The notes under the pieces were generated by a model. The model was given only the letters and a program-made list of their open reading frames with translations. It searched no databases and was not told the origin of the DNA. The translations under genes and the position numbers were made by a program. From positions 620,001 through 684,000 of the forward strand of contig JAHQRK010000026.1 of the NCBI GenBank assembly GCA_019828595.1: DNA of 64,000 nucleotides, read 5' to 3'. Positions 3,987 to 27,009 of the stretch are shown piece after piece (position 1 is the first letter of the stretch; every line of letters begins with the position of its first letter). The DNA is from Aphanomyces cochlioides (taxonomy: Eukaryota; Oomycota; Saprolegniomycetes; Saprolegniales; Verrucalvaceae).

Positions 3987-5745
3987 GTCACTGAAGATGC
4001 CGTCGAAATGATGAAGATCCTACGTGACCGTTATGGTAACAAGTCCTTCGTTGGTCATGGACGCCTGATTGATGAAGTTACCCACATGCATTGCGTCATA
4101 ACGAAACACCTCGCTCTTATTGCGACCGGTTCGACCTTGCTATTAAAGATGCTACCAATGCAGGCATTAAGTTCTCTGACGAACAAGTCGTTCATTTCTT
4201 CCTTAATGGTTTGGACTCACGATTCAACACGTTCGTGCAACTTCAAAGTCACCTTTTGCAACGCACACCTATTGACGCCTCGACGCTTTCGCTCATCACC
4301 ACGGAACTTCTCCAAGCGTATAACCGTGAACAATCGCGTTCAAGCGGTCCACCAGCGACTCCAGTCGATGAAGCTGCTCTGTCCCTTCGTCGTAATCAAC
4401 GACGCAAACCGAGTCGCAATGGACATGCTCAACCCGACACCAACAAGCGAACAGTTTGTGCTTACTGCAACATACCAAATCACACTGAAGAAAACTGTCG
4501 TCGGAAGCAACGCGACCAGCGTCAACAAACTTCTTCTCAATCCAACCAACGTCGTGTCCAATTCCAACCATCTTCGACGAACTCTCTCGCGTCTCAGACT
4601 GCCGCAAACACACGTCGCAATGCTCGCTCGTCTGTAAGCATGCTGACGTTAGGGCCTCACTATACTCTCAATGCCTTCGAGTCTCCCGCTTCGTCATCTG
4701 CGTGGATCCTTGACTCTGGCGCATCAGATCATTTCTGCAACGATGCTGCATGGTTCGAAGAACTTCAACCATTTGAGGGTACAGTTCGAGCTGCCAATGG
4801 AAGTGACATGCCGATTGCAGGCACCGGTTCTGTCTTACTTGAGATGAACACACCCACCGGTATCATTCCTGTCACTCTCCAAGATGTACTGTTCATTCCG
4901 AACCTACAGTACAACCTTTTCTCCTTATCGAGAGTAACTGATCGAGGATTCAACTCTCAGTTCCAGCGTAATGCTTGCTACATTACTCGCGAAGAAGTTG
5001 TGTATGCTCAAGGCTTCAAACGCGACAACTTGTACTACCTCGACATTGCAAACCCTTTGCCAACTCAGTCGTCTTGCACTCCTCACGTTGGTTTGTCCTT
5101 GTTGACAACTTCCGCTACTCCAACTCCAGCTGACCTTTGGCATGCTCGCCTTGGTCATATTAGTGTGAAGTATACTGGTAAAACGTGTCAATACACTGAT
5201 GGCATTGAGCTTGATGACTGCAAACATGCTTTTTGCGAAAGCTGCCTTGCTGGGAAGCAGTCTCGTTTACCCTTCCCCAAGCGCTCTATCTCCACAATTT
5301 CGGAACCGTTTGCTTTGGTACATTCGGACATTTGTGGACCTATGCGTCATCCTGCACTTCGTGATCGATCTCGGTATTTCATCACGTTTACCGATGATTA
5401 TTCGCGTTATGGTTTTGTGTTCTTTCTCAAGAACAAGTCGGATGCTCTCCAATGCTTCAAGGAGTTCACTGCCTATTGCCGCACTCAATTCGATCTACCT
5501 GTGCGATGTCTCCGTTCCGACAATGGCGGTGAATACTTCTAGACTTTATTCTCCGAGTTCTAACTCGAGAATGGCATCCAACACGATGCGACCATTCCGC
5601 ATACCCCGCAGCTAAATGGTGTCAGTGAACGCATGATTCGCACTCTCGTCGAATGTGCAAGATCATTGCTTCACTTCTGCAAAGCACATTTGCGATTTTG
5701 GGCCCAAGCTGTGTGTCATGCAATGTTCCTACAGAATCGGACATA
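3987..5745 (+). mobile_element. Ty1/copia LTR-retrotransposon fragment (gag to integrase only)
   Basis: Domain order gag, protease, integrase is the Ty1/copia order. The fragment lacks visible LTRs, reverse transcriptase and RNase H: it stops inside the integrase at 5745, where the sequence switches without a gap into the tandem-repeat unit. The 5' end of gag is also missing or unrecognisable, because a stop at 3984-3986 closes the frame. It is a dead remnant. Confidence 0.9.
3987..5745 (+). pseudogene. Broken copia Gag-Pol polyprotein
   Basis: The frame 3987-~4090 carries the gag motif LRDRYGNKSFVGHGR; a frameshift near 4090 moves coding to the frame read to 5542. That frame shows a zinc knuckle of C-x2-C-x4-H-x4-C type (CAYCNIPNHTEENC, ~4456-4497), the aspartic protease motif WILDSGASDHFC (~4703), the integrase HHCC region (LWHARLGHIS at ~5137, CESCLAG at ~5235) and the integrase core (HSDICGP, TDDYSRYGF, LRSDNGGEYF). 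In-frame stops TAG at 5540-5542 and TAA at 5561-5563 follow. The third catalytic residue lies beyond them in NGVSERMIRTL (~5615). Several independent lesions mean no function. Confidence 0.88.
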
Positions 5746-6543
5746 TTATACACCACTCACTACACACGTCAATACATACTACGCACCCCACTCCCACTAT
5801 GACACACCTTCACTCCTTCTCTTTCTTATTCATCTGTCCTCATCGCAAACGGGACCCCTGGCAACACTATCTTCTTATTCGACTCAACAAATCCCATACC
5901 AAACACAACGCGCTTGTCTTATCAACATGCTTTGAAGACAAACCTCGCACGCATGACTCGGATAACTATACCGACCCACATGCAACTCGAGTCGTTCACG
6001 GATCACATGAAAATGCTCGGAAACAGTTCATCTGCACCCTGTGTATTTCTCGTAAGAGTGTGCATGCAGCTCTCGATGTCGTACCAACTTCAAACATGCC
6101 TACCTTGGTACATTCAAACGAGACAAACAATCGTACAGCCAAACTTAGAGTGTATATCAAAAGCTTAAGATCATACAGTTGATGCTACAATTCAACGAGT
6201 CCAGGGTTTGTCTGTTTCGAATAAGGGACTTTGCTGGGGTCCAACGAACCTTGTTTTCCATCGCACAAAAAAGAGAGGCTTTTGGAGCAAGTCATTTGGT
6301 TCAGATATTTAAACTCGGAGTGGAATGAACTCAAGAGTCAGTATAGCGTATGACATGGATATGTAAACCTGTCCTCTCGTTGAAAGCACTGTCTTTCCAC
6401 GAAGACAGGTATTTTGTGTGAGGCAGAATCATGTGGGTAGCGTGGGATCGAGTGGATGTATATGTAGGGTCTTGGTTGAGGATATGAATGGGTCAAACAT
6501 GTGTGGGTATTGAAGTGATGGTAAAAAGAGAGGGAAAAAGATT

Positions 6544-6616
6544 TTCCCTAACCGGGACTCGAGCCCGGGTCGTATGGGTGAAAGCCATATATCCTAACCG
6601 CCTAGACTATTAGGGA
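6544..6616 (-). tRNA. tRNA-Glu(UUC), copy 0, C54 form
   Basis: On the minus strand this folds as a complete 73-nt cloverleaf. The acceptor is TCCCTAA/TTAGGGA with discriminator A, the D stem GTCT/AGGA, the anticodon stem TATGG/CCATA around loop CTTTCAC (anticodon TTC, Glu), and the T stem CCGGG/CCCGG. The T loop starts with C instead of T. LINE-A begins one base beyond its 5' end, so the gene body is intact but its 5' flank is LINE DNA. A T5 terminator follows at the 3' side. Confidence 0.92.
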
Positions 6617-6617
6617 A
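6602..6617 (+). repeat. Target-site duplication copy 1 (CTAGACTATTAGGGAA), left of LINE-A
   Basis: Sixteen bases, of which 15 are the first 15 nt of the tRNA-Glu gene (read on minus). The same 16 bases recur at 11523-11538 and 16094-16109, while the bases just outside differ (c, g, a). Confidence 0.95.
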
Positions 6618-6618
6618 A

Positions 6619-7288
6619 ACACTACTTCCCCACTTTATCCGCCTACGACTCATGTGCAGATGGTTCAGAGCCACCTGGGGATCGTACACACCCTTCTACA
6701 AACTCTACCAGAACCTATTTGGCCACAAGTTCTCCCTCGACAACCTGCAGGAGGACCTGGATGAGATCGTTCGGTTCTCCAAGCTGACCGATTACTCGCA
6801 CGAAATTGACGGCGACGAGTGCTGTGTCACTGCGCTAGACGCCGAAGCCATCCTCTCCCTGGGAGAAGTAGTCCTCGCAACGACGGCCCCGCTGTTCTAC
6901 AACAACGATGCCGCCCTCTGCGCAATAACAAATGGACCAATTTTCTCTATCCCTACGAGGGGAGGACATCGGTTCCTCGCCTCTGGGAACCTCAAAGAAA
7001 TTATGACGTCATCAAGCATCAGTACTTGATACTGCCGCTGCTGCTGCACAAACGGAATCCCAAAATGCAATGGAGGGAGCACCGGACGTCACAATGGAAG
7101 ACTCCCCCACGGCATCCATCCTTAGCGGATGGTCCCGCGACATGGACGCAATGATCTCCCTTGATCTCCATGATAAGCTACCCATCGAAGCCACAAACCA
7201 AAGAGCTTTCGACGCTGCAGTCAGGCGACTTTGTCACATAGACCTCACATCCCCTTGGTCCAACTCGGATGCTGAGCCCCGTGGTTAA
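6619..7288 (+). pseudogene. LINE-A ORF1 remnant (5'-truncated, frameshifted)
   Basis: An open frame from the first bases of the element to 7029 (first ATG at 6652), then a second frame, open from about 7000, running to a TAA at 7286-7288. Together they occupy the place of ORF1 and overlap the ORF2 start by 20 nt. The product would be the C-terminal part of an ORF1 protein. I see no CCHC knuckle or RRM signature, so the assignment rests on position only. Confidence 0.55.
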
Positions 7289-10200
7289 TCCTGTTGCCGC
7301 TCCTTCAATGGGTGGGGCAACATCCGTCACCATAACCACATGTAACCTGAACGGATTTATAGCCAACGACGACACCCCAGCACGCACTCTCGGCAAACGA
7401 ATCACTCAATGCGTCTTCTTTCAAGAGACTAAAATCAAGAACACTGACCACTTCAGAACCATCCGCCGACATATCACCAACCACGTTGGACACAAACAAT
7501 TTAAACTATTTGTCAACGACGAACGATCCACTGCCAACGAGCCATCCCTCTATAGAAGCAAAGGAGTGGCGACGTCCTTCCACTCTTCGATGCCAGGCTT
7601 CGAAAACCTCCAACCACTCTGGGAATTGCGTGTGCCCGATCGATACCTCATCATACGAACATACTGGGACGACTGCCCAGTTTACTTCCACAACATCTAC
7701 GCCCCTGTAGAGGATGAAAACCGAGCATCCTTCTTCGACAACCTACCACGAGACTTCGAGCCCGACAGTCGCCATATCATCGGAGGTGATTTCAATTTTC
7801 CAATGATAACGTCGGTCGACGGTGCATCTCACCACGCTGGCAATAATGCCGGTAAGGCTGAATGCTGCGCCTGGCTAGCACACCTCCGAGTCATCGACGC
7901 CTTTCGTACCACATCACCAAAAACCAGAGCGATGTCAGGCCCAGGTGGTCGAAACCGACTTGACTATATATTCATCGACTCTGCCTTGGTGGCGTTCTTC
8001 CTTAAGGCCTCAACATTTGATCAAAACCAATTCCACGGCGACCATATGACTCACACGACTATCCTCGCAAACTCATGCCAACAACCACAACGGGACTCAC
8101 GCGTACTGTGGCGACTCCCACGCGAACTCTTGAAAAACCCAAAGGTTGTAAAGGCTATTAAGCACGAGGCACAAACACTGCTAGACGAACTGACCAACGA
8201 TCCCGATTGTAACGTCGGCACTAAATGGAGCGGCTGGCTTAGACGGATCAAGCAAACACTCCGTCGATGCCACCACAACCGGCAGCGCTCCCACGCGATG
8301 CACCTAAACAACCTGCACCGAGCTTGGATACTAGCACGGCACAAGCATCGGCAGGGACACACAACCTTAGACGACGTCGCTACCGCAAAACTAGCATATG
8401 ACTCGGCCAACGACGACTGGAGGCAAGAACGTATGGATGTCGGCTTCGACCACCACGCAAATAAAAACGAAAAGACCACGTCCTACTTCCTCCGAAAGGC
8501 ACCAGCCTTAAAGATCCCTATCACTAGTGCAACAGTTGACGGGCAGATCACACATGAGCCTGCGGCTGTTGAAAGAGTCTTCACTGCACACTGGAGATCT
8601 ATAATGGTCTCACCGAGCAGCGAACTCCTCCCAGATCCTGACAAGAGCCGTCAGGTCATTGACTACGTCCAGACACTCCTTACAGAGGACGAGAAGTTTA
8701 ACCTCGAGCTCCCCATCAGCGCCCCGGAACTGTGCTCAGCACTGAAGACCATGAACCCCAATAAATCCCCGGGCCCAGATGGATGGCCGGCGGCATTCTT
8801 CCAAGTCGCACCAGAAACTTTCTCTGCGATACTGGTTAAGGTGTTCAACTACCAGAAGCAAACGCACGGCACCCTACTACCACAACAACGTCGCAGTGCT
8901 GTGACCCTCCTCTACAAAAAAGGTGACCGTTCAGATCCAGGCAACTTTAGACCGATATCGCTCATGTTGGTCGAAGTAAAAATTCTCTCTCGAGTCCTAG
9001 CGTACCGCCTGTCTGGGGTGGCCCCATCACTCATCCACCCAACTCAAGCCGGGTTCGTGCGTGGTCGTAGTATGCGTGATCACATCATACTCATCGAGGC
9101 CCTACAGCATAAGGCAACAAAAGAACAAGCGGAATGGTACGCAACGTTCTTAGACTTTGCCAAAGCGTACGATCGGGTCAATCAACACTTTCTCTTCGAC
9201 GTCATGGCAAAAATGAACATTGGCTCCAACTTCCTATCATGGATTCGCCTCCTTTACTCAGAGGGCCACCCTCGCCCACTGGGATACCCAAGTCGGGTGC
9301 CGCTCGTAACATGGCCCCCAGTGGTTCAATATAGAGATCAAATAACAGGCACGAGAGCGGGCATCCCTGCTTTACTCCTCTGTTGGGGCAAATGCTCGGT
9401 CCGAGGGTTCCGTTCAGAAGCAGGTTAACTTGGGGTCGGTGGCGTCAATCTTCTTTGCAGACGACTCCACAATACTCTCCAATTCGCTCGAGTCGGCAGA
9501 ATACCAAGTCGACTACATAGTTCGAACCTTCTGCGAAGCGTCAGGGGCGGCGCTAAATTTATCCAAATGCACAACTCTTCCACTCAACAACAGGGAGGTA
9601 CCAGCTGGCCGACGCAGCGCTCCCTCCATCACACTAGCCGGTTCAGGAATACCTATCAAATACCTGGGGATCTTCGTGGGCCACAACCTAGAACCCTCCT
9701 ACCAAATCCAACTGATACACGATAAGTACTTGTCGGCGTACACAAAATGGACATGCCGGGCGCGCACAATCCAAGGACGCAGAGTCCTCGCCTCGACTCT
9801 CATTCTCTCACCTATCTGGCATGTGACAGCCGTCAAAGTCGTCACTGATGACTTGCTTCAGAAGTGGCAGCGTGTGCTCACTAACTACATCCTTGGCCTC
9901 AAAACCATTGACGACCCAAAAGCCCGACCCCTCCTCCACAAATCATGGCATCAGGATAAGTCCTTGGGACTGGGCATACCGCACATACCGTCAGCGGTCC
10001 GAGCCCAGCGATTACTGTTGCTGCAGAAACTTATCCTAACCACATCGCATAACCCGCGGCCAGCCTGGACGCAACTCGTCCTCGAACAGTTTGAACGTTG
10101 CGTCCAACACCTCCACCGCCCCTCCCACCCTTTGGACTTCCTGTGGTATGTACCAAGCTCGTCGTCCGACTGGATCAACCTCCACGAGCTGCACCCTCTG

Positions 10201-11424
10201 TGGAAAGATGTCTGGCGTGCCTGGTCTCGTACACCCCTGGAACAAAGGATGCAGGTGCAACTGGACCTCGACACTACCCTCAACTTACCCATCTGGCTCT
10301 CCACTCACCCATGCCTCCTGAACGAAAACGGGCGTAACGCGTCAGCTTTGATAACAACTGCAAACCTCCGCCGCTGGTGCCAACACGGTGCAGGCAACGG
10401 ATTCCACAGCCTACTAGACATCATACGCTGAGGGGTAGCAGGCCACTGGCCGACCTTCGATTCCCTCCGAGCGAGCTTTTCCGTTGGCAACCGCGAAATG
10501 ACAGTATCGCTCCACATGGGCCAAATCCGGTTCGACATGGTCGACAGCTCTATTACGATCTACAACCACCTCACTACCATATACACCAAAACTCTAGTCC
10601 AATTCGGCGTCCGCCGCGACACCCCCCTCCACGACACCGCAGAGACGAGCCACGGCTTCAAAGCCCTAGTAAAGAACCAGACCATCCCCTCCGAGCACTG
10701 GCCCCGACGCCTCATCGGCCGTTGCGCCTTCCATGGTCCCACTTGCACTAAACCACACCCAACACATTCAGTCGCACGTACAGACTACACATCAGCACAC
10801 ACATACATGCGACTATTCCGCCGCTCAATGGTGTGGCTCACCCCAGTTCACGCAGACGTCTGGCTACGAATTACAATGCGAATGATCCCAGTTAACAGTC
10901 GCTTCCCGTACCGCCAGGCAACACACCCAGACTCCGTCCTATGCACGCATGGCTGCGCAGAGGTTGAAACCGAAGAGCATGCCTTTCACACCTGCGAGAA
11001 AATATCTCCCGTCTGGAAGGATCATCAATCAGCCTGGGGCCCACTTGGCATATCCTGCTCGTGGGACTGGATCCTTAACATTGACAAATTTGCAACCAAC
11101 GAACGACTCAAACCCCTCCGTTCCTCCTTCTTTCGGCTGTGGGTAATGCTCACCGGAACCCTGCTACACGTCGTTTGGAGGCATCACAACCTAGCACTGC
11201 ACCAACATCGTCGCCTACCCCCATCACATGCCCTGGTGGGCCTATCCTTTGTGCTATGGCTACGTACAATCCGTCGCCACCTGCGTGGCCTCGAACCAGA
11301 AAACGACGAACGATCTGACACCCTTATGGCGCTCGAAGAGTTGCTCAGCAAGCAGCCCTACCGTGACCTACGCTTGAAACATCCAAAATGCCTCGAGCTC
11401 GAGGCAAACTTCGATGTGCACTAG
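7269..11424 (+). pseudogene. LINE-A ORF2: AP endonuclease + reverse transcriptase + zinc knuckle, disrupted
   Basis: ORF2 nicks the target and copies the element RNA at the nick. The start ATG at 7269 overlaps ORF1. Endonuclease motifs: CNLNGF (~residues 25-30), FFQETKI (~51-57), IIGGDFNF (~170), RNRLDYIF (~228), HGDHMTH (~256). Reverse transcriptase motifs: NKSPGPDGW (~500), LLYKKGDRSDPGNFRPISL, QAGFVRGRSMRDH, TFLDFAKAYDR (~630) and FFADDST (9448-9468). Motif B is absent from the plus strand because 9264-9435 is inverted. The frame resumes one register later at 9436, meets an in-frame TGA at 10429-10431 and then runs to a TAG at 11422-11424. Near the C-terminus is CTHGCAEVETEEHAFHTC (C-x3-C-x8-H-x3/4-C type). 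At least two independent lesions. Confidence 0.9.
9264..9435 (-). other. 172-bp inverted segment inside the LINE-A reverse transcriptase
   Basis: Read on the minus strand the segment encodes RT motif B and its surroundings: NLLLNGTLGPSICPNRG, then GVKQGCPLSCLLF, then YIEPLGAML. This is exactly what is missing between LLYSE and SIFFADD on the plus strand; LINE-B has the corresponding part in normal orientation (12074-12250). Boundaries are good to a few bases. The length is 1 modulo 3, matching the frame change across it. Confidence 0.93.
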
Positions 11425-11522
11425 CACCAGAGGGCAAGACGCCCTGTACACCACAACACGACTGGGATGAGCTTCGGCAATATTAGATAGCTTGTTAACA
11501 AGTTAACAGAGCCCTTTGCCAG
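11425..11522 (+). promoter_or_regulatory. LINE-A 3' UTR with stem-loop and conserved 19-mer
   Basis: A stem-loop AGGGC-AAGAC-GCCCT lies at 11431-11445, seven bases after the stop. At 11476-11494 is GGCAATATTAGATAGCTTG, also present in LINE-B once the mariner insertion is ignored. The element ends GAGCCCTTTGCCAG with no poly(A). Such 3' structures are where the RT of site-specific LINEs usually binds its RNA; that role here is inferred. Confidence 0.6.
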
Positions 11523-11538
11523 CTAGACTATTAGGGAA
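11523..11538 (+). repeat. Target-site duplication copy 2, shared between LINE-A and LINE-B
   Basis: Exact copy of the 16-mer. It is the right duplication of LINE-A and at the same time the left duplication of LINE-B, and all that remains here of a tRNA gene. Confidence 0.95.
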
Positions 11539-11540
11539 CT

Positions 11541-14229
11541 GCTCTCAAATCCATGCACCCGAACAAGTCCCCTGGCCCAGACGGCTGGCCAGCTGCCTTT
11601 TTTCAAGTGGCTCCTGATACCTTCGCAGCAATCCTGCTACGAGTGTTTAATGGCCAACGAACCAGCTTCAACAAGTTATTGAAACACCAAAGGACGAGCT
11701 CTGTGACTCTGCTCTACAAGAAAGGAGAAAGAACAGACCCTGGCAACTACCGTCCCATCTCTCTCATGCCAGTGGAAGTTAAAATACTTTCCAAAGTACT
11801 CGCATACCGACTATCACTGGTGGCCACGACACTCATACACCCAAACCAAGCTGGCTTCATCCCTGGCCGAAGCATGCGAGATCACATACTCCTCATTGAT
11901 GCACTGCAACACAAAGCCACTCGCAATGACGAGGAATGGTACGCTACCTTCCTAGACTTCGCCAAAGCTTACGACAGCGTGGACCAGCGATTCATGTTTG
12001 ATGTCATGGGGAAGATGAACATTGGATCGAGCTTCCTCGAATGGGTCAAGCTCTTATACCACCAACCTCAAGTCCAACTGCTCATTAACGGTGAGCTTGG
12101 ACGTCCAATCCTCCCCAACAGAGGGATCAAGCAGGGCTGCCCTCTCTCCTGCCTCCTGTTCAACATCTACATCGAGCCACTGGGAGCCATGCTCAGAGCC
12201 GAGCCAGCTCTAGGCATCCCCATTAACGACACATCTCGACTGACTAGCATATTCTTCGCAGATGACTCCACACTGCTGTCAAACTCCCTCGAATCTGCTG
12301 ACTATCAAGTCGACACTATAGTCGGAGCCTTCTGCGCAGTATCTGGAGCATCACTAAATCTTGCGAAATGCGTCACCCTCCCCCTCAATAACAATGAAAC
12401 ACCAGAGAACCGACCAAGCGCCCCCAACATCACAATAGCTCGAACTGGACAGCCCATCAAATACCTTGGCATATACATTGGACACAAGCTAGACCCCGGA
12501 TACCAAGTGCAATTACTGCACGACAAGTATCTGGCATCTTACGTGACATGGGCCTGCCGGGCGCGCACCGTCCAAGGCAGACGTGCACTTGCATCGTCGC
12601 TCATCCTTTCACAAATCTGGCACATCACAGCAGTGAGACCCATCCCCGATGCTGTGGTGACCCAATGGCAAAGAGCGCTCACCAACTACATCCTTGGTAG
12701 CAAAACAGTCACGGACCCTAAGGCTCGCCACCTCCTGCACCAAATGTGGCACCACGAGAAAATTCTCGGACCTGGCATTCCACATATCTCTTCGTCAATT
12801 AGAGTGCAGAGACTCAAACTCCAACGCCTCATACGTCACTACGACAAACAGGACACGCCACACTGGACCCAACTTGTGATGGAACAATTCTCACAATGCC
12901 TCTCAGGACTCTATCGCAAGTCCCACCCGTTCGACTTCCTGTCCTACTAACCTGCCTTAACTTCGAAATGGCTTGCCCTCGACGAACTACACCCGCTGTG
13001 GACAGACGTGTGGTCTCAATGGGCTAAAACACCTATGGAACACAGAGCCCAGACAACACTGAGCTTCGCCACACTACTGAACATGCCAATCTGGCTGACT
13101 AACCACGATGTATTCCTCGACGGTCAATCACAAAACGCAGGAAACATGGCAGCGACACCAATGCTGCGTCGATGGTGCCTGCAAGGCGCTAAGAACGGCA
13201 TCCGTAGCCTTGCCGACATCCTGACCACTGGCCACACTGGGTTCTGGCCAACTTTTGATCAATTCAGATCCTCCATTACAGCGAACAACCAGGAAATGAC
13301 AGTCTCCCTACACATGGGCAGAATCCGTTTTGATATGGTCGAACGATCGAAGCGAATCTACGACCATCTAACATTCATCTATCGCAGAATCGGCGCGCTG
13401 CACAACATCCGACAAGACCTTCCCCAACTTAACATACCGACTACACCCCATCCCTTTGCGAGACTCGCTAAGGATCACCGCCTCCCATTTGAATCGTGGT
13501 CGCACCGCACTCTATCGTGAGCAGCATACTGTGGTCCCCGACCAACACGACAGCATCCCACACGAACGTCAGACCAAAGTGATCTGACGACAGCCAAATC
13601 ATTCATGCACAAATTTCGAGGAGCCATGCGACTCCTCACACCAACCCATGCTGACGTCTGGTTTCGTATCATTCTCAAGATGATACCAGTCAATGGCCGC
13701 TTTGCCTTCCGACAACAGCAGAACTCAATATCCATCAACTGCACACATCACTGTGACGACGTCGAAACAGAGGCTCCTCTGTTTCGACGTCTTCCACACA
13801 TGCCGCAATATCCACCCACTGTGGGCGGCCCACACCAGAGCATGGCAACATTTCAATGGCTCATTTGAATGGCACTCCCTGCTACGCCCCGACTCTGTCA
13901 AATTCAATAAACACGCTAGGGAGTTCTCTGAAATCCTTCATCATCTCTGGATCATGCTCTCCGGCGTGTGCTTACACTTGATCTGGCGTCACCACAACTT
14001 GACCCTGCACCAACACAAATCCGTCGCCCCCAACCATGTGTTGTTCGAACTGTCCTTCCTCCTATGGATGTCAACGACCCGACGATGGCTTCGACTCATC
14101 GAAGACGACGACGAGAAGCAATCAACATTGGCTGCACTTCAAACCCTCCTCGCCCAGCCACTATACTCGGACCTCTTGGCCAAACATCCACGAAGCTTGG
14201 AACTCGAAACAACCTTCGACGTCCACTAA
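11541..14229 (+). pseudogene. LINE-B ORF2 fragment: reverse transcriptase and C-terminal zinc knuckle
   Basis: The RT domain is complete from NKSPGPDGW: LLYKKGERTDPGNYRPISL, QAGFIPGRSMRDH, TFLDFAKAYDSVD (motif A), GIKQGCPLSCLLF (motif B) and FFADDST (motif C, ~12256). There is no endonuclease because of 5' truncation. Lesions are TAA at 12948-12950, TGA at 13518-13520, and a +10 net insertion at 13773-13791 within the zinc knuckle that moves coding to the next frame, which ends at a TAA at 14227-14229. Both stops fall in the frame that otherwise aligns with LINE-A. Confidence 0.9.
13758..13791. repeat. Perfect 15-bp inverted repeat (snap-back duplication) in LINE-B
   Basis: GACGTCGAAACAGAG at 13758-13772 is followed by GCTC and then its exact reverse complement at 13777-13791. 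LINE-A has nine bases at the corresponding place, LINE-B nineteen, so the second arm is a new, locally templated inverted copy. It causes the frameshift in the zinc-knuckle region. Confidence 0.9.
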
Positions 14230-14235
14230 CACATA

Positions 14236-14252
14236 TGGGACACGCTGTCCCA
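14236..14252 (+). promoter_or_regulatory. Stem-loop after the LINE-B stop codon
   Basis: TGGGACA-CGC-TGTCCCA, a 7-bp perfect stem six bases after the stop. LINE-A has a stem of different sequence but the same placement at 11431-11445, suggesting conserved structure rather than sequence. Confidence 0.55.
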
Positions 14253-14338
14253 CTCACAAACCAAATCCAAATAGATCTGGGCTAGTGAGGTCCTCCAAAC
14301 TGGTCACGATCTGGGTTGAGATTAGGCAATATTAGATA

Positions 14339-14368
14339 CTACTCTGTAAACTTTTGTAAGCACCATTT
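14339..14368 (+). repeat. Left terminal inverted repeat of the mariner element
   Basis: Thirty bases that match the reverse complement of 16031-16060 with one mismatch at position 4. Confidence 0.94.
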
Positions 14369-14505
14369 CAGTTTTGTTGATGTGAGGAAATGTAAGCATT
14401 TTTTACGAGACAGCCAATCAAATCACAGTATCGCTTGATTGGAATGTATTTAGCCAATTAAAAAGGCAAGCCTATCTATCAGCAGAACTAGTACGAGCAA
14501 GCCTA

Positions 14506-15852
14506 CTACAAGTAATGCAAGTTGCAGTTCTGAACGATGTCAATGTCGCAAGGCAAGCTTATCGGGAGGCTGTTTGTTTTGATCAATCTGTCTTTCCCCA
14601 TGTGTGGCAGCTTGTATTTGTTGGAACCTTTGTTGCGCAACGTCTCCAACATCACTGACTGCAAAGTCAAAAAAACTCGCTCCAAGACAAGCGAATCAAG
14701 CTCGTGAAATGAGTCCTGGACGGCAACAATGAGTTCGTCGATTGTCGTTGGTGATTTTGTGTACTGGAGCGATTGAATCGCGTGGAAGTATCCGAGGTCC
14801 AGCACATTAAGGTCGGGACTGTTCGGTGGTTGGCATCGAACTTCGACATCGAATTGCGGTAAATGGCGGGACAACAAATCTTGCGGAAATTCGCCATGAG
14901 GACTGGCGTTGTCGTGCTGAATGACTAATCGTTGGCCTTCTTGAGGCCATCTTTCCTTGATTGCAGGCAGTAATTTGGTCAATATAAACTCCTCGTACAC
15001 AGATTTGTTCACATTGATTGACTGAGTTTCGAGCGTGTCTCTTGGGATATTTCGGCTTGACCGTGCGGCAGCAACTTGTTGAACAAACGGCCATAATCCC
15101 AACTTGCCATCAAACGTACAAACACCGTTCTCATCAAATCGAGGCCGAGCGACACCACAGAGAAACATCACCTTGGTTCGAAAGCTTTTGCTTGTGCATT
15201 CTCGATGAGGTTCTTCTTCGTTGCATGTGATATATATCTTGCGGTCGATTTCATCCAGCCAAAACCATTTCTCGTCGACGTGTATGAGGTCAAACATCGG
15301 TTCAAAGTAGAAAGTTCTCGTATTAACGAAGTTAATACAGAACTCCACCCTCTTGCGCTTTCCTTCTTCGGTCAAGTATGGTTTCAAGCTGTTTGTACTG
15401 CTTCGCAACAGTCCAAGCGATATCAATTTTCGCAACGTGGTGGTTGAAACTCCAACAGCCTTGGCCAAGGAGCGCAATGATCGACGAAGACGGAACGTCA
15501 CATGCTCAATTTTGACAAGCAACGCTTTGAAGTCAGTTTGTTTGCGACCACAATGTTTCTGACGGTGGTTGACAGCCCTTGCATACGGTTGCCCGTTGTG
15601 AATTGGGTCGTGGGCATCGTTCCAAATCCGTTTAACGGTTTGCCTTCCAATGCGAAACTTTTCCATGGTCTGTTTTACATGACCGTAGTCCAGTTTTCCA
15701 CCAACACTGAGGGCTAGCATGAAGAGCAGCACTTCTTGTCTTTCGCCGGTCTTCAAGACTCGGCGCTTCTTTGGCTCGGGGGCCAACAAGCACTCAATAT
15801 CCATACGTTTGCAAATCAACAATGCCCAATGAATTACATGTGGGTGTAACAT
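14506..15852 (-). CDS. mariner-like transposase, intact, DD37D by count
   Basis: A 448-codon uninterrupted frame that should encode the transposase binding the flanking TIRs and moving the element by cut and paste. Residues ~123-147 form a helix-turn-helix (SLRSLAKAVGVSTTTLRKLI). The catalytic triad is D193 (LIHVDEKWF), D314 (VIQHDNASPH) and D352 (NSPDLNVLDLGYF), with 37 residues between the second and third Asp. The NSPDLNVLDLG motif resembles plant-type mariner-like elements, which usually have a spacing of 39. The first ATG is at 15852; a second at residue 17 (MDIECLL) is also possible. No intron, stop or frameshift is visible, so activity is possible. Confidence 0.92.
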   Translation of the reverse strand: MLHPHVIHWALLICKRMDIECLLAPEPKKRRVLKTGERQEVLLFMLALSVGGKLDYGHVKQTMEKFRIGRQTVKRIWNDAHDPIHNGQPYARAVNHRQKHCGRKQTDFKALLVKIEHVTFRLRRSLRSLAKAVGVSTTTLRKLISLGLLRSSTNSLKPYLTEEGKRKRVEFCINFVNTRTFYFEPMFDLIHVDEKWFWLDEIDRKIYITCNEEEPHRECTSKSFRTKVMFLCGVARPRFDENGVCTFDGKLGLWPFVQQVAAARSSRNIPRDTLETQSINVNKSVYEEFILTKLLPAIKERWPQEGQRLVIQHDNASPHGEFPQDLLSRHLPQFDVEVRCQPPNSPDLNVLDLGYFHAIQSLQYTKSPTTIDELIVAVQDSFHELDSLVLERVFLTLQSVMLETLRNKGSNKYKLPHMGKDRLIKTNSLPISLPCDIDIVQNCNLHYL

Positions 15853-16030
15853 ACTAGTAGTATCTGTGTCTACTAGACATTACTAGAGTAAAATTTGGTT
15901 GGTTGCGAACTTCCGTTGAAGTTCTTGACATTCTCTTCGCTGCATTCGCTTGCCAGTGGATTGAGGGGGTTCCTAAACGATTTTTAGCCAATAAAATTCG
16001 TTTTTGAATGATTTACATCAACCCAACAGC

Positions 16031-16060
16031 AAATGGTGCTTACAAAAGTTTACAGATTAG
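16031..16060 (-). repeat. Right terminal inverted repeat of the mariner element
   Basis: Partner of 14339-14368, followed by the TA duplication at 16061-16062 and then LINE-B sequence. Confidence 0.94.
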
Positions 16061-16093
16061 TAGCTTGAACTTGATAATCACACCCTTTGACGA

Positions 16094-16109
16094 CTAGACT
16101 ATTAGGGAA
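16094..16109 (+). repeat. Target-site duplication copy 3, right of LINE-B
   Basis: Exact copy of the 16-mer. Directly after it the array resumes with CCATACTTACGCCCAC, the normal sequence upstream of a tRNA-Glu gene, so the insertions interrupted one continuous array. Confidence 0.95.
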
Positions 16110-16767
16110 CCATACTTACGCCCACAATGCACCATACCATACACATTATACACCACTCACTACACACGTCAATACATACTACGCACCCCACTCCCACTAT
16201 GACACACCTTCACTCCTTCTCTTTCTTATTCATCTGTCCTCATCGCAAACGGGACCCCTGGCAACACTATCTTCTTATTCGACTCAACAAATCCCATACC
16301 AAACACAACGCGCTTGTCTTATCAACATGCTTTGAAGACAAACCTCGCACGCATGACTCGGATAACTATACCGACCCACATGCAACTCGAGTCGTTCACG
16401 GATCACATGAAAATGCTCGGAAACAGTTCATCTGCACCCTGTGTATTTCTCGTAAGAGTGTGCATGCAGCTCTCGATGTCGTACCAACTTCAAACATGCC
16501 AACCGTGGTACATTCAAACGAGACAAACAATCGTACAGCCAAACTTAGAGTGTATATCAAAAGCTTAAGATCATACAGTTGATGCTACAATTCAACGAGT
16601 CCAGGGTTTGTCTGTTTCGAATAAGGGACTTTGCTGGGGTCCAACGAACCTTGTTTTCCATCGCACAAAAAAGAGAGGCTTTTGGAGCAAGACATTTGGT
16701 TCAGATATTTAAACTCGGAGTGGAATGAACTCAAGAGTCAGTATAGCGTATGACATGGATATGTAAA

Positions 16768-16809
16768 CCTGTCCTCTCGTTGAAAGCACTGTCTTTCCAC
16801 GAAGACAGG
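16768..16809 (+). other. Conserved spacer hairpin (first array unit; repeated in every unit)
   Basis: CCTGTC pairs with GACAGG; inside, CGTTGAAAG pairs with CTTTCCACG with one mismatch around loop CACTGT. It is followed by GTATTTTGTG. The same element occurs once per unit at constant phase. It might be a small RNA, a processing signal or chance. One unit (~23148) has a change in the loop only; another (~57661) has one extra A in the stem. Confidence 0.35.
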
Positions 16810-16931
16810 TATTTTGTGTGAGGCAGAATCATGTGGGTAGCGTGGGGTCGAGTGGATGTATGTGTAGGGTCTTGGTTGAGGATATGAATGGGTCAAACAT
16901 GTGTGGGTATTGAAGTGATGGTAAAAAGAGA

Positions 16932-16940
16932 GGGAAAAAG
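16932..16940 (-). terminator. Pol III T-run downstream of tRNA-Glu copy 1 (representative)
   Basis: Read on minus, the tRNA 3' end is followed within four bases by CTTTTTCCC (T5), with a second T5 about 13 bases further on. Units with AAAAGGATT instead of AAAAAGATT have T4 in the first run. Copies 0-2, 27, 28, 33 and 40-52 have T5, the others T4. Confidence 0.7.
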
Positions 16941-16943
16941 ATT

Positions 16944-17016
16944 TTCCCTAACCGGGACTCGAGCCCGGGTCGTATGGGTGAAAGCCATATATCCTAACCG
17001 CCTAGACTATTAGGGA
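16944..17016 (-). tRNA. tRNA-Glu(UUC), copy 1, C54 form
   Basis: Same cloverleaf as copy 0. First array gene to the right of the LINE pile; T5 terminator. Confidence 0.93.
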
Positions 17017-17852
17017 ACCATACTTACGCCCACAATGCACCATACCATACACATTATACACCACTCACTACACACGTCAATACATACTACGCTGCCCCAC
17101 TCCCACTATGACACACCTCCACTCCTTCTCTTTCTTATTCATCTGTCCTCATCGCAAACGGGACCCCTGGCAACACTATCTTCTTATTCGACTCAACAAA
17201 TCCCATACCAAACACAACGCGCTTGTCTTATCAACATGCTTTGAAGACAAACCTCGCACGCATGACTCGGATAACTATACCGACCCACATGCAACTCGAG
17301 TCGTTCACGGATCACATGAAAATGCTCGGAAACAGTTCATCTGCACCCTGTGTATTTCTCGTAAGAGTGTGCATGCAGCTCTCGATGTCGTACCAACTTC
17401 AAACATGCCAACCGTGGTACATTCAAACGAGACAAACAATCGTACAGCCAAACTTAGAGTGTATATCAAAAGCTTAAGATCATACAGTTGATGCTACAAT
17501 TCAACGAGTCCAGGGTTTGTCTGTTTCGAATAAGGGACTTTGCTGGGGTCCAACGAACCTTGTTTTCCATCGCACAAAAAAGAGAGGCTTTTGGAGCAAG
17601 TCATTTGGTTCAGATATTTAAACTCGGAGTGGAATGAACTCAAGAGTCAGTATAGCGTATGACATGGATATGTAAACCTGTCCTCTCGTTGAAAGCACTG
17701 TCTTTCCACGAAGACAGGTATTTTGTGTGAGGCAGAATCATGTGGGTAGCGTGGGGTCGAGTGGATGTATGTGTAGGGTCTTGGTTGAGGATATGAATGG
17801 GTCAAACATGTGTGGGTATTGAAGTGATGGTAAAAAGAGAGGGAAAAAGATT

Positions 17853-17925
17853 TTCCCTAACCGGGACTCGAGCCCGGGTCGTATGGGTGAAAGCCATATA
17901 TCCTAACCGCCTAGACTATTAGGGA
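17853..17925 (-). tRNA. tRNA-Glu(UUC), copy 2, C54 form
   Basis: Identical to copy 1; T5 terminator. Confidence 0.93.
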
Positions 17926-18760
17926 ACCATACTTACGCCCACAATGCACCATACCATACACATTATACACCACTCACTACACACGTCAATACATACTACG
18001 CACCCCACTCCCACTATGACACACCTCCACTCCTTCTCTTTCTTATTCATCTGTCCTCATCGCAAACGGGACCCCTGGCAACACTATCTTCTTATTCGAC
18101 TCAACAAATCCCATACCAAACACAACGCGCTTGTCTTATCAACATGCTTTGAAGACAAACCTCGCACGCATGACTCGGATAACTATACCGACCCACATGC
18201 AACTCGAGTCGTTCACGGATCACATGAAAATGCTCGGAAAAAGTTCATCTGCACCCTGTGTATTTCTCGTAAGAGTGTGCATGCAGCTCTCGATGTCGTA
18301 CCAACTTCAAACATGCCAACCGTGGTACATTCAAACGAGACAAACAATCGTACAGCCAAACTTAGAGTGTATATCAAAAGCTTAAGATCATACAGTTGAT
18401 GCTACAATTCAACGAGTCCAGGGTTTGTCTGTTTCGAATAAGGGACTTTGCTGGGGTCCAACGAACCTTGTTTTCCATCGCACAAAAAAGAGAGGCTTTT
18501 GGAGCAAGACATTTGGTTCAGATATTTAAACTCGGAGTGGAATGAACTCAAGAGTCAGTATAGCGTATGACATGGATATGTAAACCTGTCCTCTCGTTGA
18601 AAGCACTGTCTTTCCACGAAGACAGGTATTTTGTGTGAGGCAGAATCATGTGGGTAGCGTGGGGTCGAGTGGATGTATATGTAGGGTCTTGGTTGAGGAT
18701 ATGAATGGGTCAAACATGTGTGGGTATTGAAGTGATGGTAAAAAGAGAGGGAAAAGGATT

Positions 18761-18833
18761 TTCCCTAACCGGGACTCGAACCCGGGTCGTATGGGTGAAA
18801 GCCATATATCCTAACCGCCTAGACTATTAGGGA
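18761..18833 (-). tRNA. tRNA-Glu(UUC), copy 3, T54 form
   Basis: First gene of the canonical T54 block, with T loop TTCGAGT and a B box fitting GGTTCGANTCC; T4 terminator. Confidence 0.97.
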
Positions 18834-19668
18834 ACCATACTTACGCCCACAATGCACCATACCATACACATTACACACCACTCACTACACACGTCAATAC
18901 ATACTACGCACCCCACTCCCACTATGACACACCTTCACTCCTTCTCTTTCTTATTCATCTGTCCTCATCGCAAACGGGACCCCTGGCAACACTATCTTCT
19001 TATTCGACTCAACAAATCCCATACCAAACACAACGCGCTTGTCTTATCAACATGCTTTGAAGACAAACCTCGCACGCATGACTCGGATAACTATACCGAC
19101 CCACATGCAACTCGAGTCGTTCACGGATCACATGAAAATGCTCGGAAACAGTTCATCTGCACCCTGTGTATTTCTCGTAAGAGTGTGCATGCAGCTCTCG
19201 ATGTCGTACCAACTTCAAACATGCCTACCTTGGTACATTCAAACGAGACAAACAATCGTACAGCCAAACTTAGAGTGTATATCAAAAGCTTAAGATCATA
19301 CAGTTGATGCTACAATTCAACGAGTCCAGGGTTTGTCTGTTTCGAATAAGGGACTTTGCTGGGGTCCAACGAACCTTGTTTTCCATCGCACAAAAAAGAG
19401 AGGCTTTTGGAGCAAGTCATTTGGTTCAGATATTTAAACTCGGAGTGGAATGAACTCAAGAGTCAGTATAGCGTATGACATGGATATGTAAACCTGTCCT
19501 CTCGTTGAAAGCACTGTCTTTCCACGAAGACAGGTATTTTGTGTGAGGCAGAATCATGTGGGTAGCGTGGGGTCGAGTGGATGTATATGTAGGGTCTTGG
19601 TTGAGGATATGAATGGGTCAAACATGTGTGGGTATTGAAGTGATGGTAAAAAGAGAGGGAAAAGGATT

Positions 19669-19741
19669 TTCCCTAACCGGGACTCGAACCCGGGTCGTAT
19701 GGGTGAAAGCCATATATCCTAACCGCCTAGACTATTAGGGA
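19669..19741 (-). tRNA. tRNA-Glu(UUC), copy 4, T54 form
   Basis: Identical to copy 3; T4. Confidence 0.97.
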
Positions 19742-20577
19742 ACCATACTTACGCCCACAATGCACCATACCATACACATTACACACCACTCACTACACAC
19801 GTCAATACATACTACGCTGCCCCACTCCCACTATGACACACCTCCACTCCTTCTCTTTCTTATTCATCTGTCCTCATCGCAAACGGGACCCCTGGCAACA
19901 CTATCTTCTTATTCGACTCAACAAATCCCATACCAAACACAACGCGCTTGTCTTATCAACATGCTTTGAAGACAAACCTCGCACGCATGACTCGGATAAC
20001 TATACCGACCCACATGCAACTCGAGTCGTTCACGGATCACATGAAAATGCTCGGAAACAGTTCATCTGCACCCTGTGTATTTCTCGTAAGAGTGTGCATG
20101 CAGCTCTCGATGTCGTACCAACTTCAAACATGCCTACCTTGGTACATTCAAACGAGACAAACAATCGTACAGCCAAACTTAGAGTGTATATCAAAAGCTT
20201 AAGATCATACAGTTGATGCTACAATTCAACGAGTCCAGGGTTTGTCTGTTTCGAATAAGGGACTTTGCTGGGGTCCAACGAACCTTGTTTTCCATCGCAC
20301 AAAAAAGAGAGGCTTTTGGAGCAAGTCATTTGGTTCAGATATTTAAACTCGGAGTGGAATGAACTCAAGAGTCAGTATAGCGTATGACATGGATATGTAA
20401 ACCTGTCCTCTCGTTGAAAGCACTGTCTTTCCACGAAGACAGGTATTTTGTGTGAGGCAGAATCATGTGGGTAGCGTGGGGTCGAGTGGATGTATATGTA
20501 GGGTCTTGGTTGAGGATATGAATGGGTCAAACATGTGTGGGTATTGAAGTGATGGTAAAAAGAGAGGGAAAAGGATT

Positions 20578-20650
20578 TTCCCTAACCGGGACTCGAACCC
20601 GGGTCGTATGGGTGAAAGCCATATATCCTAACCGCCTAGACTATTAGGGA
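20578..20650 (-). tRNA. tRNA-Glu(UUC), copy 5, T54 form
   Basis: Identical to copy 3; T4. Confidence 0.97.
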
Positions 20651-21486
20651 ACCATACTTACGCCCACAATGCACCATACCATACACATTACACACCACTC
20701 ACTACACACGTCAATACATACTACGCTGCCCCACTCCCACTATGACACACCTCCACTCCTTCTCTTTCTTATTCATCTGTCCTCATCGCAAACGGGACCC
20801 CTGGCAACACTATCTTCTTATTCGACTCAACAAATCCCATACCAAACACAACGCGCTTGTCTTATCAACATGCTTTGAAGACAAACCTCGCACGCATGAC
20901 TCGGATAACTATACCGACCCACATGCAACTCGAGTCGTTCACGGATCACATGAAAATGCTCGGAAACAGTTCATCTGCACCCTGTGTATTTCTCGTAAGA
21001 GTGTGCATGCAGCTCTCGATGTCGTACCAACTTCAAACATGCCTACCTTGGTACATTCAAACGAGACAAACAATCGTACAGCCAAACTTAGAGTGTATAT
21101 CAAAAGCTTAAGATCATACAGTTGATGCTACAATTCAACGAGTCCAGGGTTTGTCTGTTTCGAATAAGGGACTTTGCTGGGGTCCAACGAACCTTGTTTT
21201 CCATCGCACAAAAAAGAGAGGCTTTTGGAGCAAGTCATTTGGTTCAGATATTTAAACTCGGAGTGGAATGAACTCAAGAGTCAGTATAGCGTATGACATG
21301 GATATGTAAACCTGTCCTCTCGTTGAAAGCACTGTCTTTCCACGAAGACAGGTATTTTGTGTGAGGCAGAATCATGTGGGTAGCGTGGGGTCGAGTGGAT
21401 GTATATGTAGGGTCTTGGTTGAGGATATGAATGGGTCAAACATGTGTGGGTATTGAAGTGATGGTAAAAAGAGAGGGAAAAGGATT

Positions 21487-21559
21487 TTCCCTAACCGGGA
21501 CTCGAACCCGGGTCGTATGGGTGAAAGCCATATATCCTAACCGCCTAGACTATTAGGGA
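21487..21559 (-). tRNA. tRNA-Glu(UUC), copy 6, T54 form
   Basis: Identical to copy 3; T4. Confidence 0.97.
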
Positions 21560-22395
21560 ACCATACTTACGCCCACAATGCACCATACCATACACATTAC
21601 ACACCACTCACTACACACGTCAATACATACTACGCTGCCCCACTCCCACTATGACACACCTCCACTCCTTCTCTTTCTTATTCATCTGTCCTCATCGCAA
21701 ACGGGACCCCTGGCAACACTATCTTCTTATTCGACTCAACAAATCCCATACCAAACACAACGCGCTTGTCTTATCAACATGCTTTGAAGACAAACCTCGC
21801 ACGCATGACTCGGATAACTATACCGACCCACATGCAACTCGAGTCGTTCACGGATCACATGAAAATGCTCGGAAACAGTTCATCTGCACCCTGTGTATTT
21901 CTCGTAAGAGTGTGCATGCAGCTCTCGATGTCGTACCAACTTCAAACATGCCAACCGTGGTACATTCAAACGAGACAAACAATCGTACAGCCAAACTTAG
22001 AGTGTATATCAAAAGCTTAAGATCATACAGTTGATGCTACAATTCAACGAGTCCAGGGTTTGTCTGTTTCGAATAAGGGACTTTGCTGGGGTCCAACGAA
22101 CCTTGTTTTCCATCGCACAAAAAAGAGAGGCTTTTGGAGCAAGTCATTTGGTTCAGATATTTAAACTCGGAGTGGAATGAACTCAAGAGTCAGTATAGCG
22201 TATGACATGGATATGTAAACCTGTCCTCTCGTTGAAAGCACTGTCTTTCCACGAAGACAGGTATTTTGTGTGAGGCAGAATCATGTGGGTAGCGTGGGGT
22301 CGAGTGGATGTATATGTAGGGTCTTGGTTGAGGATATGAATGGGTCAAACATGTGTGGGTATTGAAGTGATGGTAAAAAGAGAGGGAAAAGGATT

Positions 22396-22468
22396 TTCCC
22401 TAACCGGGACTCGAACCCGGGTCGTATGGGTGAAAGCCATATATCCTAACCGCCTAGACTATTAGGGA
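22396..22468 (-). tRNA. tRNA-Glu(UUC), copy 7, T54 form
   Basis: Identical to copy 3; T4. Confidence 0.97.
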
Positions 22469-23304
22469 ACCATACTTACGCCCACAATGCACCATACCAT
22501 ACACATTACACACCACTCACTACACACGTCAATACATACTACGCTGCCCCACTCCCACTATGACACACCTCCACTCCTTCTCTTTCTTATTCATCTGTCC
22601 TCATCGCAAACGGGACCCCTGGCAACACTATCTTCTTATTCGACTCAACAAATCCCATACCAAACACAACGCGCTTGTCTTATCAACATGCTTTGAAGAC
22701 AAACCTCGCACGCATGACTCGGATAACTATACCGACCCACATGCAACTCGAGTCGTTCACGGATCACATGAAAATGCTCGGAAACAGTTCATCTGCACCC
22801 TGTGTATTTCTCGTAAGAGTGTGCATGCAGCTCTCGATGTCGTACCAACTTCAAACATGCCAACCGTGGTACATTCAAACGAGACAAACAATCGTACAGC
22901 CAAACTTAGAGTGTATATCAAAAGCTTAAGATCATACAGTTGATGCTACAATTCAACGAGTCCAGGGTTTGTCTGTTTCGAATAAGGGACTTTGCTGGGG
23001 TCCAACGAACCTTGTTTTCCATCGCACAAAAAAGAGAGGCTTTTGGAGCAAGTCATTTGGTTCAGATATTTAAACTCGGAGTGGAATGAACTCAAGAGTC
23101 AGTATAGCGTATGACATGGATATGTAAACCTGTCCTCTCGTTGAAAGCACTATCTTTCCACGAAGACAGGTATTTTGTGTGAGGCAGAATCATGTGGGTA
23201 GCGTGGGGTCGAGTGGATGTATATGTAGGGTCTTGGTTGAGGATATGAATGGGTCAAACATGTGTGGGTATTGAAGTGATGGTAAAAAGAGAGGGAAAAG
23301 GATT

Positions 23305-23377
23305 TTCCCTAACCGGGACTCGAACCCGGGTCGTATGGGTGAAAGCCATATATCCTAACCGCCTAGACTATTAGGGA
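23305..23377 (-). tRNA. tRNA-Glu(UUC), copy 8, T54 form
   Basis: Identical to copy 3; T4. Confidence 0.97.
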
Positions 23378-24212: not shown

Positions 24213-24285
24213 TTCCCTAACCGGGACTCGAACCCGGGTCGTATGGGTGAAAGCCATATATCCTAACCGCCTAGACTATTAGGGA
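24213..24285 (-). tRNA. tRNA-Glu(UUC), copy 9, T54 form
   Basis: Identical to copy 3; T4. Confidence 0.97.
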
Positions 24286-25120: not shown

Positions 25121-25193
25121 TTCCCTAACCGGGACTCGAACCCGGGTCGTATGGGTGAAAGCCATATATCCTAACCGCCTAGACTATTAGGGA
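25121..25193 (-). tRNA. tRNA-Glu(UUC), copy 10, T54 form
   Basis: Identical to copy 3; T4. Confidence 0.97.
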
Positions 25194-26027: not shown

Positions 26028-26100
26028 TTCCCTAACCGGGACTCGAACCCGGGTCGTATGGGTGAAAGCCATATATCCTAACCGCCTAGACTATTAGGGA
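26028..26100 (-). tRNA. tRNA-Glu(UUC), copy 11, T54 form
   Basis: Identical to copy 3; T4. The spacer of this unit has a 1-bp deletion near 25651. Confidence 0.97.
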
Positions 26101-26936: not shown

Positions 26937-27009
26937 TTCCCTAACCGGGACTCGAACCCGGGTCGTATGGGTGAAAGCCATATATCCTAACCGCCTAGAC
27001 TATTAGGGA
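26937..27009 (-). tRNA. tRNA-Glu(UUC), copy 12, T54 form
   Basis: Identical to copy 3; T4. Confidence 0.97.

Follow-up and report, generated by a model that had tools for sequence, protein, structure and literature searches.

The window analysed here, a stretch of 64,000 nucleotides of Aphanomyces cochlioides (contig JAHQRK010000026.1, positions 620,001 to 684,000, referred to as C19; C-numbers denote contigs of the source assembly), carries a tandem array of tRNA-Glu(TTC) genes and, at the left edge of that array, two long interspersed nuclear elements (LINEs), LINE-A and LINE-B, which between them encode parts of an apurinic/apyrimidinic (AP)-type endonuclease and of a reverse transcriptase (RT). 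The array comprises 53 tRNA-Glu(TTC) genes on the − strand at a spacing of about 908 bp (ARAGORN), and both LINEs lie on the + strand, in line with the common orientation assigned to them in a preliminary description of this sequence. The locus is composed of the following features.

5741..6617, − strand: leftmost unit of the 908-bp array (unit positions 32-908), 99.3% over 877 bp to an intact unit
6543-6617, − strand: complete tRNA-Glu(TTC) gene in the leftmost unit (ARAGORN; Rfam RF00005, 58.8 bits at 6544-6616)
6602..6617, − strand: left copy of the 16-bp target-site duplication, tRNA-Glu nucleotides (nt) −1 to +15, within the intact tRNA gene (exact match, Rfam numbering)
6618..11522, + strand: LINE-A (tRNA-Glu lineage), 4905 bp, 5'-truncated, AP-type endonuclease and RT
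about 9302..9442, − strand: 141-bp inverted stretch in the RT of LINE-A, which it breaks (blastn, LINE-A 2685-2825 against the opposite strand of LINE-B)
11464..11522, + strand: 3' tail of LINE-A, GGGATGAGCTTCGGCAATATTAG...CCCTTTGCCAG, the part common to tail-bearing copies
11523..11538, − strand: 16-bp duplication, second copy, limited to tRNA nt −1 to +15
11539..16093, + strand: LINE-B (tRNA-Glu lineage), 4555 bp including a nested element, 5'-truncated
14337..16062, no strand assigned: Mariner/Tc1-like element (a label inferred from structure) nested in the tail of LINE-B, with terminal inverted repeats and TA at both ends
16094..16109, − strand: third copy of the 16-mer, fused to the original 5' flank of the target gene, with the array in register onward
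16110..64000, − strand: remaining tRNA-Glu(TTC) array, which extends on the contig to about C19:696.8 kb

The 16-mer CTAGACTATTAGGGAA is found exactly at 6602-6617, 11523-11538, and 16094-16109, where the preliminary description had placed it, and thereby brackets both LINEs. It represents tRNA-Glu nt −1 to +15 on the reverse strand (the Rfam model puts tRNA nt 1 at 6616). In the window it occurs 55 times (54 exact matches and one with a single mismatch), compared with none in 100 shuffles; 53 of these matches are the 5' ends of tRNA-Glu(TTC) genes in the 908-bp array, and the remaining two are the pieces at 11523 and 16094. Of the three copies that bracket the LINEs, the left one belongs to a complete tRNA and the other two are bare 16-bp pieces, the last of which is joined to the native flank; beyond 16109 the array picks up again in register, as had been recognised before. 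The repeats of CTAGACTATTAGGGAA are a target-site duplication of 16 bp. On the contig, the array amounts to 67 tRNA 5' ends over C19:626.6-696.1 kb, one of them with a mismatch, and it is the only locus of the assembly that matches the tRNA-Glu(TTC) 5'-end pattern. Judged from the spacing, LINEs are present in only one of the 67 array units, at the left edge of the array; the loss of LINEs from inner units through array homogenisation is a possible reason.

The three longer blocks aligned between LINE-A and LINE-B, one of which is inverted, are 69-71% identical, and a block of 57 bp is 82% identical. Since identity in the longer blocks is this low, the pair is not the outcome of one segmental duplication, and on their sequences the two elements are best described as separate insertions at one base, as first proposed. 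The description of one of them as full through ORF2 needs correction. LINE-A is 5'-truncated as well, at a point that looks by eye to fall in open reading frame (ORF) 1, and its RT is broken by the 141-bp inversion, a stretch that LINE-B and a copy on C22 carry in normal orientation. LINE-A matches PF03372 at 24.7 bits (cut-off 24.5) and, partially, PF00078, and its best PDB match is human L1 ORF2p. LINE-B starts in the RT part and hence is without endonuclease; Pfam RVT_1 (PF00078) is covered from positions 3 to 204 of 205 in 11553-12950. In the mariner-like element, 34 of 40 terminal bases of the terminal repeats match, and its ORF (14506-15852, − strand) matches DUF7769 at 28.2 bits (cut-off 27), with HTH_28 below its cut-off.

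A piece of the LINE 3' tail was used as query over the window's assembly, blind to flanks and with one mismatch allowed. Two of the 13 matches (on C6 and C67) were without LINE tail and were dropped before counting, which leaves 11 tail-bearing copies of the Glu lineage on three contigs (five on C17, five on C22, and LINE-A), often nested head to tail. After each of the 11 tails stands the tRNA-Glu 16-mer or a variant: the match is exact in one case, has one change in six cases and two changes in two, and contains inserted bases in the last two. LINE-B, the tail of which is split by the mariner, makes a twelfth copy at the 16-mer. The flanks of the 3' ends are thus non-random, which supports the sequence-specific endonuclease suspected from the start. 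Ten of the 11 tails are independent, C17:605872 and 627812 being an inverted duplicate. The duplication of the Glu lineage is given as 16 bp because the base at −1 is repeated, which is seen before varied starts in nine of the 11 copies and is absent in the two with inserted bases. The arrangement of the window recurs on C17, where an intact tRNA-Glu(CTC) at 605575-605648 precedes a LINE remnant of 267 bp that ends at the 16-mer. On C22 (669.7-674.9 kb), five tails form a stack in which the 16-mer closes each; all five share a T to C change at the same place, which fits serial use of one target. The left end of this stack is rearranged, lacks a tRNA-Glu, and lies beside a tRNA-Pro array.

The preliminary description had missed a sister lineage, located on C1, C2, and C21 with an RT 62-67% identical, that inserts at the same nucleotide of tRNA-Ser. 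Its LINEs end in ...CCTTTGACTT directly followed by CTCGGCCAAGCTG, the latter being tRNA-Ser read backwards from nt 15. A flank-blind tail search returned 18 matches, of which five belong to the Glu and 13 to the Ser lineage; 11 of these 13 tails run into tRNA-Ser nt 15-1 (two of them with one change), and the 11 include five C2 tails that may have arisen from fewer events by segmental copying. An element of 6.56 kb on C2, regarded as a single unit because of its length and the one RT match inside, was read at both ends: its left end (L100) reads CTCGGCCAAGCTGTC and then AGTCC, its right end (L054) the same 15 bases and then TTTCATG, which is an exact 15-bp duplication of tRNA-Ser nt 1-15. The RT search scored 91 of 1429 candidates and hence gives minimum RT counts. 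With a junction pattern that also admits other A boxes (one mismatch allowed), 83 matches were obtained, compared with 27 in the reversed control. The 29 exact matches comprise 26 known Ser/Glu junctions (nine of which are the scars described below), a new Ser-like junction (C12:2788394), a decayed Ser-like one (C21:210113), and one that looks like chance (C34:3412613). Among the 54 matches with one mismatch, five are Ser/Glu junctions; the others, eight identical C17/C35 rows left aside, appear to stem from chance or from unrelated repeats. A third tRNA isotype was not found by this pattern in the assembly, and the pattern would miss diverged tails. The LINE junction on C12 (TCCTTTGACTATTCGGCCAAGCTGAC), known from the pattern match alone, is Ser-like and solitary.

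In both lineages the LINE is antisense to the tRNA, and the junction at its 3' end falls between nt 15 and 16 of the tRNA, after A14-R15 of the A box. The insertion site had been described as one nucleotide upstream of the tRNA; this is correct for the outer cut, and the other cut lies inside the gene. All 11 Glu tails and 11 of the 13 Ser tails have their junction at nt 15/16, unlike the dictyostelid TREs, which insert in a zone outside the tRNA gene. On the 5' side of the LINE or stack, a complete tRNA gene (A and B box, with only the upstream flank new) is present at seven of the nine sites read: the window, C17:605633 and its inverted twin (where the first LINE match begins 27 bp beyond the tRNA), and four sites at which an intact tRNA-Ser directly precedes the LINE 5' end, with anticodon GCT at C21:195.8 kb, C21:232.4 kb, and C1:718.3 kb and AGA at C2:573.5 kb. 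Neither this tRNA-restoring duplication nor the putative nick inside the A box had been noticed before. Many 5'-truncated copies, duplications of 15-16 bp, and tail-only scars are present, which fit insertion by target-primed reverse transcription. The terminal LINE bases vary (AG, GA, and TG in Glu; TT in Ser), and no pairing of the LINE tail with the nicked strand was seen by eye. A shared 3'-terminal hairpin in the LINE tails was considered and dropped, as RNAalifold gave three pairs, none of which was changed on both sides.

The scars are the most direct trace of the priming site. They are located in an array of tRNA-Ser(CGA) genes on C2 (555-645 kb; 27 loops, unit of about 2.24 kb), where nine of the 27 genes, all nine read, contain GGCCGAG, then AAGTCAAAGGATGC, and then GCGTTAGACTCG. 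AAGTCAAAGGATGC is the complement of the last LINE-tail bases and stands at the same nick, and the scar returns to the tRNA at an 8-nt match, GCGTTAGA, that is common to tail and tRNA. All eight unscarred copies read have GGCCGAGCGGTTAAGGCGTTAGA in place of the scar and carry GGCCGAGCGGTTAAGGCGTTAGACTCG; ARAGORN calls all eight, and not the one scarred copy that was retested alongside. In the remaining 10 of the 27 loops the scarred 16-mer was absent by pattern search. Judged from sequence, the scars look like products of reverse transcription that started at the nick and was cut short into the tRNA, after which the scarred form spread through the array; the nine probably do not represent independent events. 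At C2:554.7-555.1 kb (L068), a scarred tRNA-Ser(CGA) is immediately followed, by eye, by a 5'-truncated LINE piece; this gene may have been hit again, or the scar may have arisen later.

The proteins place both lineages near L1. An open ORF2 of the Ser lineage (1416 amino acids) is matched by phmmer to human L1 ORF2p over residues 123-833, and a family profile of 12 sequences finds human L1 ORF2p over endonuclease and RT at an E value of 5.9e-85, ahead of R2 at 2.3e-33. An N-terminal AP-type endonuclease followed by an RT in one ORF, the mark of the L1 group, is present, as is the combination of AP endonuclease and sequence-specific insertion, one mark of the Tx1 clade; the AP-type domain stands before the RT, which sets the elements apart from the restriction-like-endonuclease type (NeSL/Utopia/R2). 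In the 1416-residue ORF, Pfam detects neither an endonuclease after the RT nor (at E 0.1) an RNase H family, unlike the Dp_NLTR-A type, and an open piece of ORF1 (459 amino acids) has no Pfam family. The enzyme is, to judge from these matches, L1-like with an AP-type endonuclease. Public relatives include P0001-P0007 at 54-63% identity and Aphanomyces astaci proteins at 46-49%; relatives with DNA flanks were found in neither the viral-contig nor the genome-contig searches. In a tree of 28 rows (close relatives and a few distant rows, the rows of LINE-B and of the C19 border copy being less than half filled), a Glu clade (97/95) comprises LINE-A and LINE-B together with the C19 border copy and P0006, and a Ser clade (100/100) comprises the Ser element, P0001-P0005, and P0007. 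The two clades are united at 99/100, and an abundant, 56% identical family stands outside them.

Taken together, LINE-A and LINE-B are very likely separate insertions of a target-specific, L1-like lineage, placed most likely by an element endonuclease that nicks the sense strand of the tRNA in the A box at nt 15/16. In the proposed course of events, the endonuclease would nick this strand after nt 15, and the free 3' end (...GTCTAG in Glu or ...GCCGAG in Ser) would prime reverse transcription of the LINE RNA, starting from its conserved ...CCTTTGAC tail. The second strand would be cut at the tRNA 5' edge (nt −1/+1), and fill-in would duplicate nt −1 to 15 (Glu, 16 bp) or nt 1 to 15 (Ser, 15 bp). 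A completed insertion would keep a full tRNA gene, with A and B box, 5' of the LINE and replace the upstream flank alone. Because the intact gene keeps the full target, a later copy could enter between it and the older LINE, leading to stacks with the youngest copy beside the tRNA; the mariner in the outer LINE-B and its absence from LINE-A fit this order and do not prove it. Since both families are found at the same tRNA-Glu/tRNA-Ser position, with a complete gene adjoining most of the sites read, the endonuclease likely recognises the internal promoter of the tRNA gene. A wider reading, which we favour with some reserve, is that the tRNA gene is a self-renewing docking site: the A box is read between nt 15 and 16, the cuts are spaced to duplicate the missing tRNA 5' end, the target survives, stacks consume no sites, damage comes from aborted insertions only, and the isotype can switch (Glu, Ser) with the geometry kept.

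Several observations weigh against this interpretation. Nick position, polarity, and priming are all read from junctions. Two of the nine 5'-side sites depart from the restored state, C22 being rearranged, beside the tRNA-Pro array, and C2:554.97 kb holding a scarred tRNA-Ser(CGA), and in the nine scarred genes the target is damaged. Near 596 kb on C17, two of the 11 Glu sites have insertions inside the 16-mer and miss its last base; among the Ser tails, C2:553003 meets only the seven bases CTCGGCC, and C21:219751 has no tRNA at its end. Segmental duplication multiplied some copies (those on C17 and, probably, the nine scars and the five tails on C2), which makes independent events fewer than rows, and the tail searches, which tolerate one or three mismatches, miss decayed copies. 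Regarding the enzyme, Pfam reports the RT alone in the 1416-residue Ser ORF, and this ORF deviates from its relatives at a nearly invariant endonuclease position; it is therefore only a candidate active enzyme.

Other explanations have to account for the same junctions. That the window pair goes back to a single insertion, multiplied by segmental duplication or by unequal exchange in the array, is very improbable: such copies do exist elsewhere (the inverted pair on C17 and the C2 array), but 69-71% identity in the longer blocks, the differing 5' truncations, and a mariner in only one element speak against it here. Still less credible, to the point of being negligible, is passive survival, whereby LINEs would insert anywhere and only copies in redundant tRNA arrays would outlast selection. 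Arrays may well be expendable DNA, but survival of this kind can account neither for a junction kept to one base on several contigs and in two types of tRNA nor for the tail-only scars of tRNA-Ser(CGA).

Two further proposals concern the way in which the target is found. TFIIIC binds the A box, and the nick inside it suits a tethering model in which RNA polymerase III factors (TFIIIC on the A box, TFIIIB) would bring the LINE machinery to tRNA genes and the endonuclease itself would have little sequence preference, as proposed for Dictyostelium TRE5-A. TRE5-A ORF1 interacts with TFIIIB proteins, and TRE5 is likewise opposite in orientation to the tRNA (PMC5911963; this and the other sources cited are drawn on in excerpt). 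Tethering is nevertheless unlikely as the explanation, since the position is fixed to the base and the isotype is kept (with LINE-B, 12 of 12 Glu tails and none of 13 Ser tails at Glu), whereas TRE5 spreads over 40-54 bp upstream and TRE3 over 40-150 bp downstream (PMC5911963); tethering and endonuclease specificity can also act together. RNA-guided fidelity, a tentative idea that we doubt slightly less, holds that LINE read-through RNA with an antisense piece of the tRNA 5' end would pair with the nicked strand and so hold each lineage to its isotype. The complement of the primer strand does follow each LINE, and read-through RNA would pair over 15-16 nt; against this, the last LINE bases vary, the idea is drawn from DNA and not from transcripts, and a protein would still be needed for the first cut.

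Dewa, Mutsu (5S), and Keno (U2) are Tx1-clade LINEs and resemble the Aphanomyces elements as target-specific LINEs at multicopy RNA genes. Target-specific LINEs of this clade have an AP-derived endonuclease (PMC4640811), but Dewa lies in a tRNA-Leu spacer and not in the gene (PMC3706591). As to the suggestion of a new tRNA-Glu-targeting family, a LINE in tRNA-Glu, the planarian LIN25_SM, is already published, along with LIN15_SM (also planarian) in tRNA-Arg and NeSL-1_TV in tRNA-Pro, all relatives of the NeSL clade (PMC4640811). Target-specific LINEs beyond the Tx1 and R1 clades use a restriction-like endonuclease (PMC4640811). In contrast, the Aphanomyces elements have an N-terminal AP-type endonuclease and an L1-like RT, and are set apart by endonuclease type. 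Utopia comprises target-specific LINEs in U2 genes of oomycetes, with several families per array, but differs in its restriction-like endonuclease and in that the disrupted U2 genes are without their 5'-terminal 38 bp and are not restored (PMC4640811).

The dictyostelid TRE5/TRE3 and NLTR-A elements are also AP endonuclease LINEs at tRNA genes, and TRE5 is likewise antisense. TRE5 inserts 40-54 bp upstream of the tRNA (PMC5911963) and NLTR-A of D. purpureum 2-6 bp upstream of nt 1 (PMC5006619), so that the TREs differ by an insertion zone tens of bp away and NLTR-A by its RNase H domain; isotype restriction is a feature of the Aphanomyces elements that the excerpted sources do not state for those. 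The Dada DNA transposons resemble them in that each family uses its own tRNA type (PMC3706591) and several insert in the A box at nt 8-13 (PMC8869645), and differ in their DDE transposase, short duplications, and lack of reverse transcription. A 15-bp duplication is also given for human L1 (PMC4245944). Among the best-ranked matches in the open-licence PMC literature, at the level of titles and abstract starts and with Repbase outside the scope, none dealt with such Aphanomyces elements or with an AP-type LINE cutting inside the tRNA A box. Target-specific LINEs at tRNA genes are thus already known; as far as this literature goes, the AP endonuclease, the in-gene nick at one structural position, the target-restoring duplication, and the two isotypes are new.

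A number of further observations were made at and around these loci. Within the array, the unit at 55155-55170 has a tRNA-Glu 5' end with one change (CTAGACTATTGGGGAA), and Pfam gives no match for the 151-residue ORF (16127-16582) that the array unit carries. Just ahead of the first array unit, a Copia-like fragment (Pol_BBD, gag_pre-integrs, and a weak rve) lies at 4091-5542 of the window. At the right border of the array (about C19:696.8 kb; L069, L070), a 3'-broken Glu-lineage LINE on the opposite strand is joined mid-unit, and a protein kinase gene lies past this border. Other tandem tRNA repeats are those of tRNA-Pro(AGG), with a unit of 1324 bp (L073, L075, C22:663.6-668.2 kb), and of tRNA-Ser(ACT), with a unit of 183 bp (L065, C2:274 kb).

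A sister LINE family with an RT 55-57% identical is found on C13, C15, C34, C78, C36, C42, C23, C30, and C24 (e.g., L056-L058, L072, and L089). It has 117 tail-pattern matches, and all 100 of those listed lead into a run of 5-20 T and from there into (GATT)GGGA..., with which the family's own 5' region begins. Its units stand head to tail in clusters of about 135-370 kb, and the listed matches keep one orientation on C13, C15, C34, C42, and C78 and are mixed on C36 and C24. Zepp and HeT-A are self-targeting elements, and this family is possibly self-targeting or centromeric, too.

If the interpretation is correct, an AP-endonuclease LINE of the type related to human L1 would target one base of the internal promoter of a tRNA gene and leave the gene whole, which would make it a natural model of renewable site-specific insertion. 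With two sister lineages, two isotypes, and one position, these elements would also be a test case of how base-exact specificity arises in an AP endonuclease and how such an enzyme shifts from one related target to another. The stacks and tail-only scars would offer a readable record of completed and aborted insertions.

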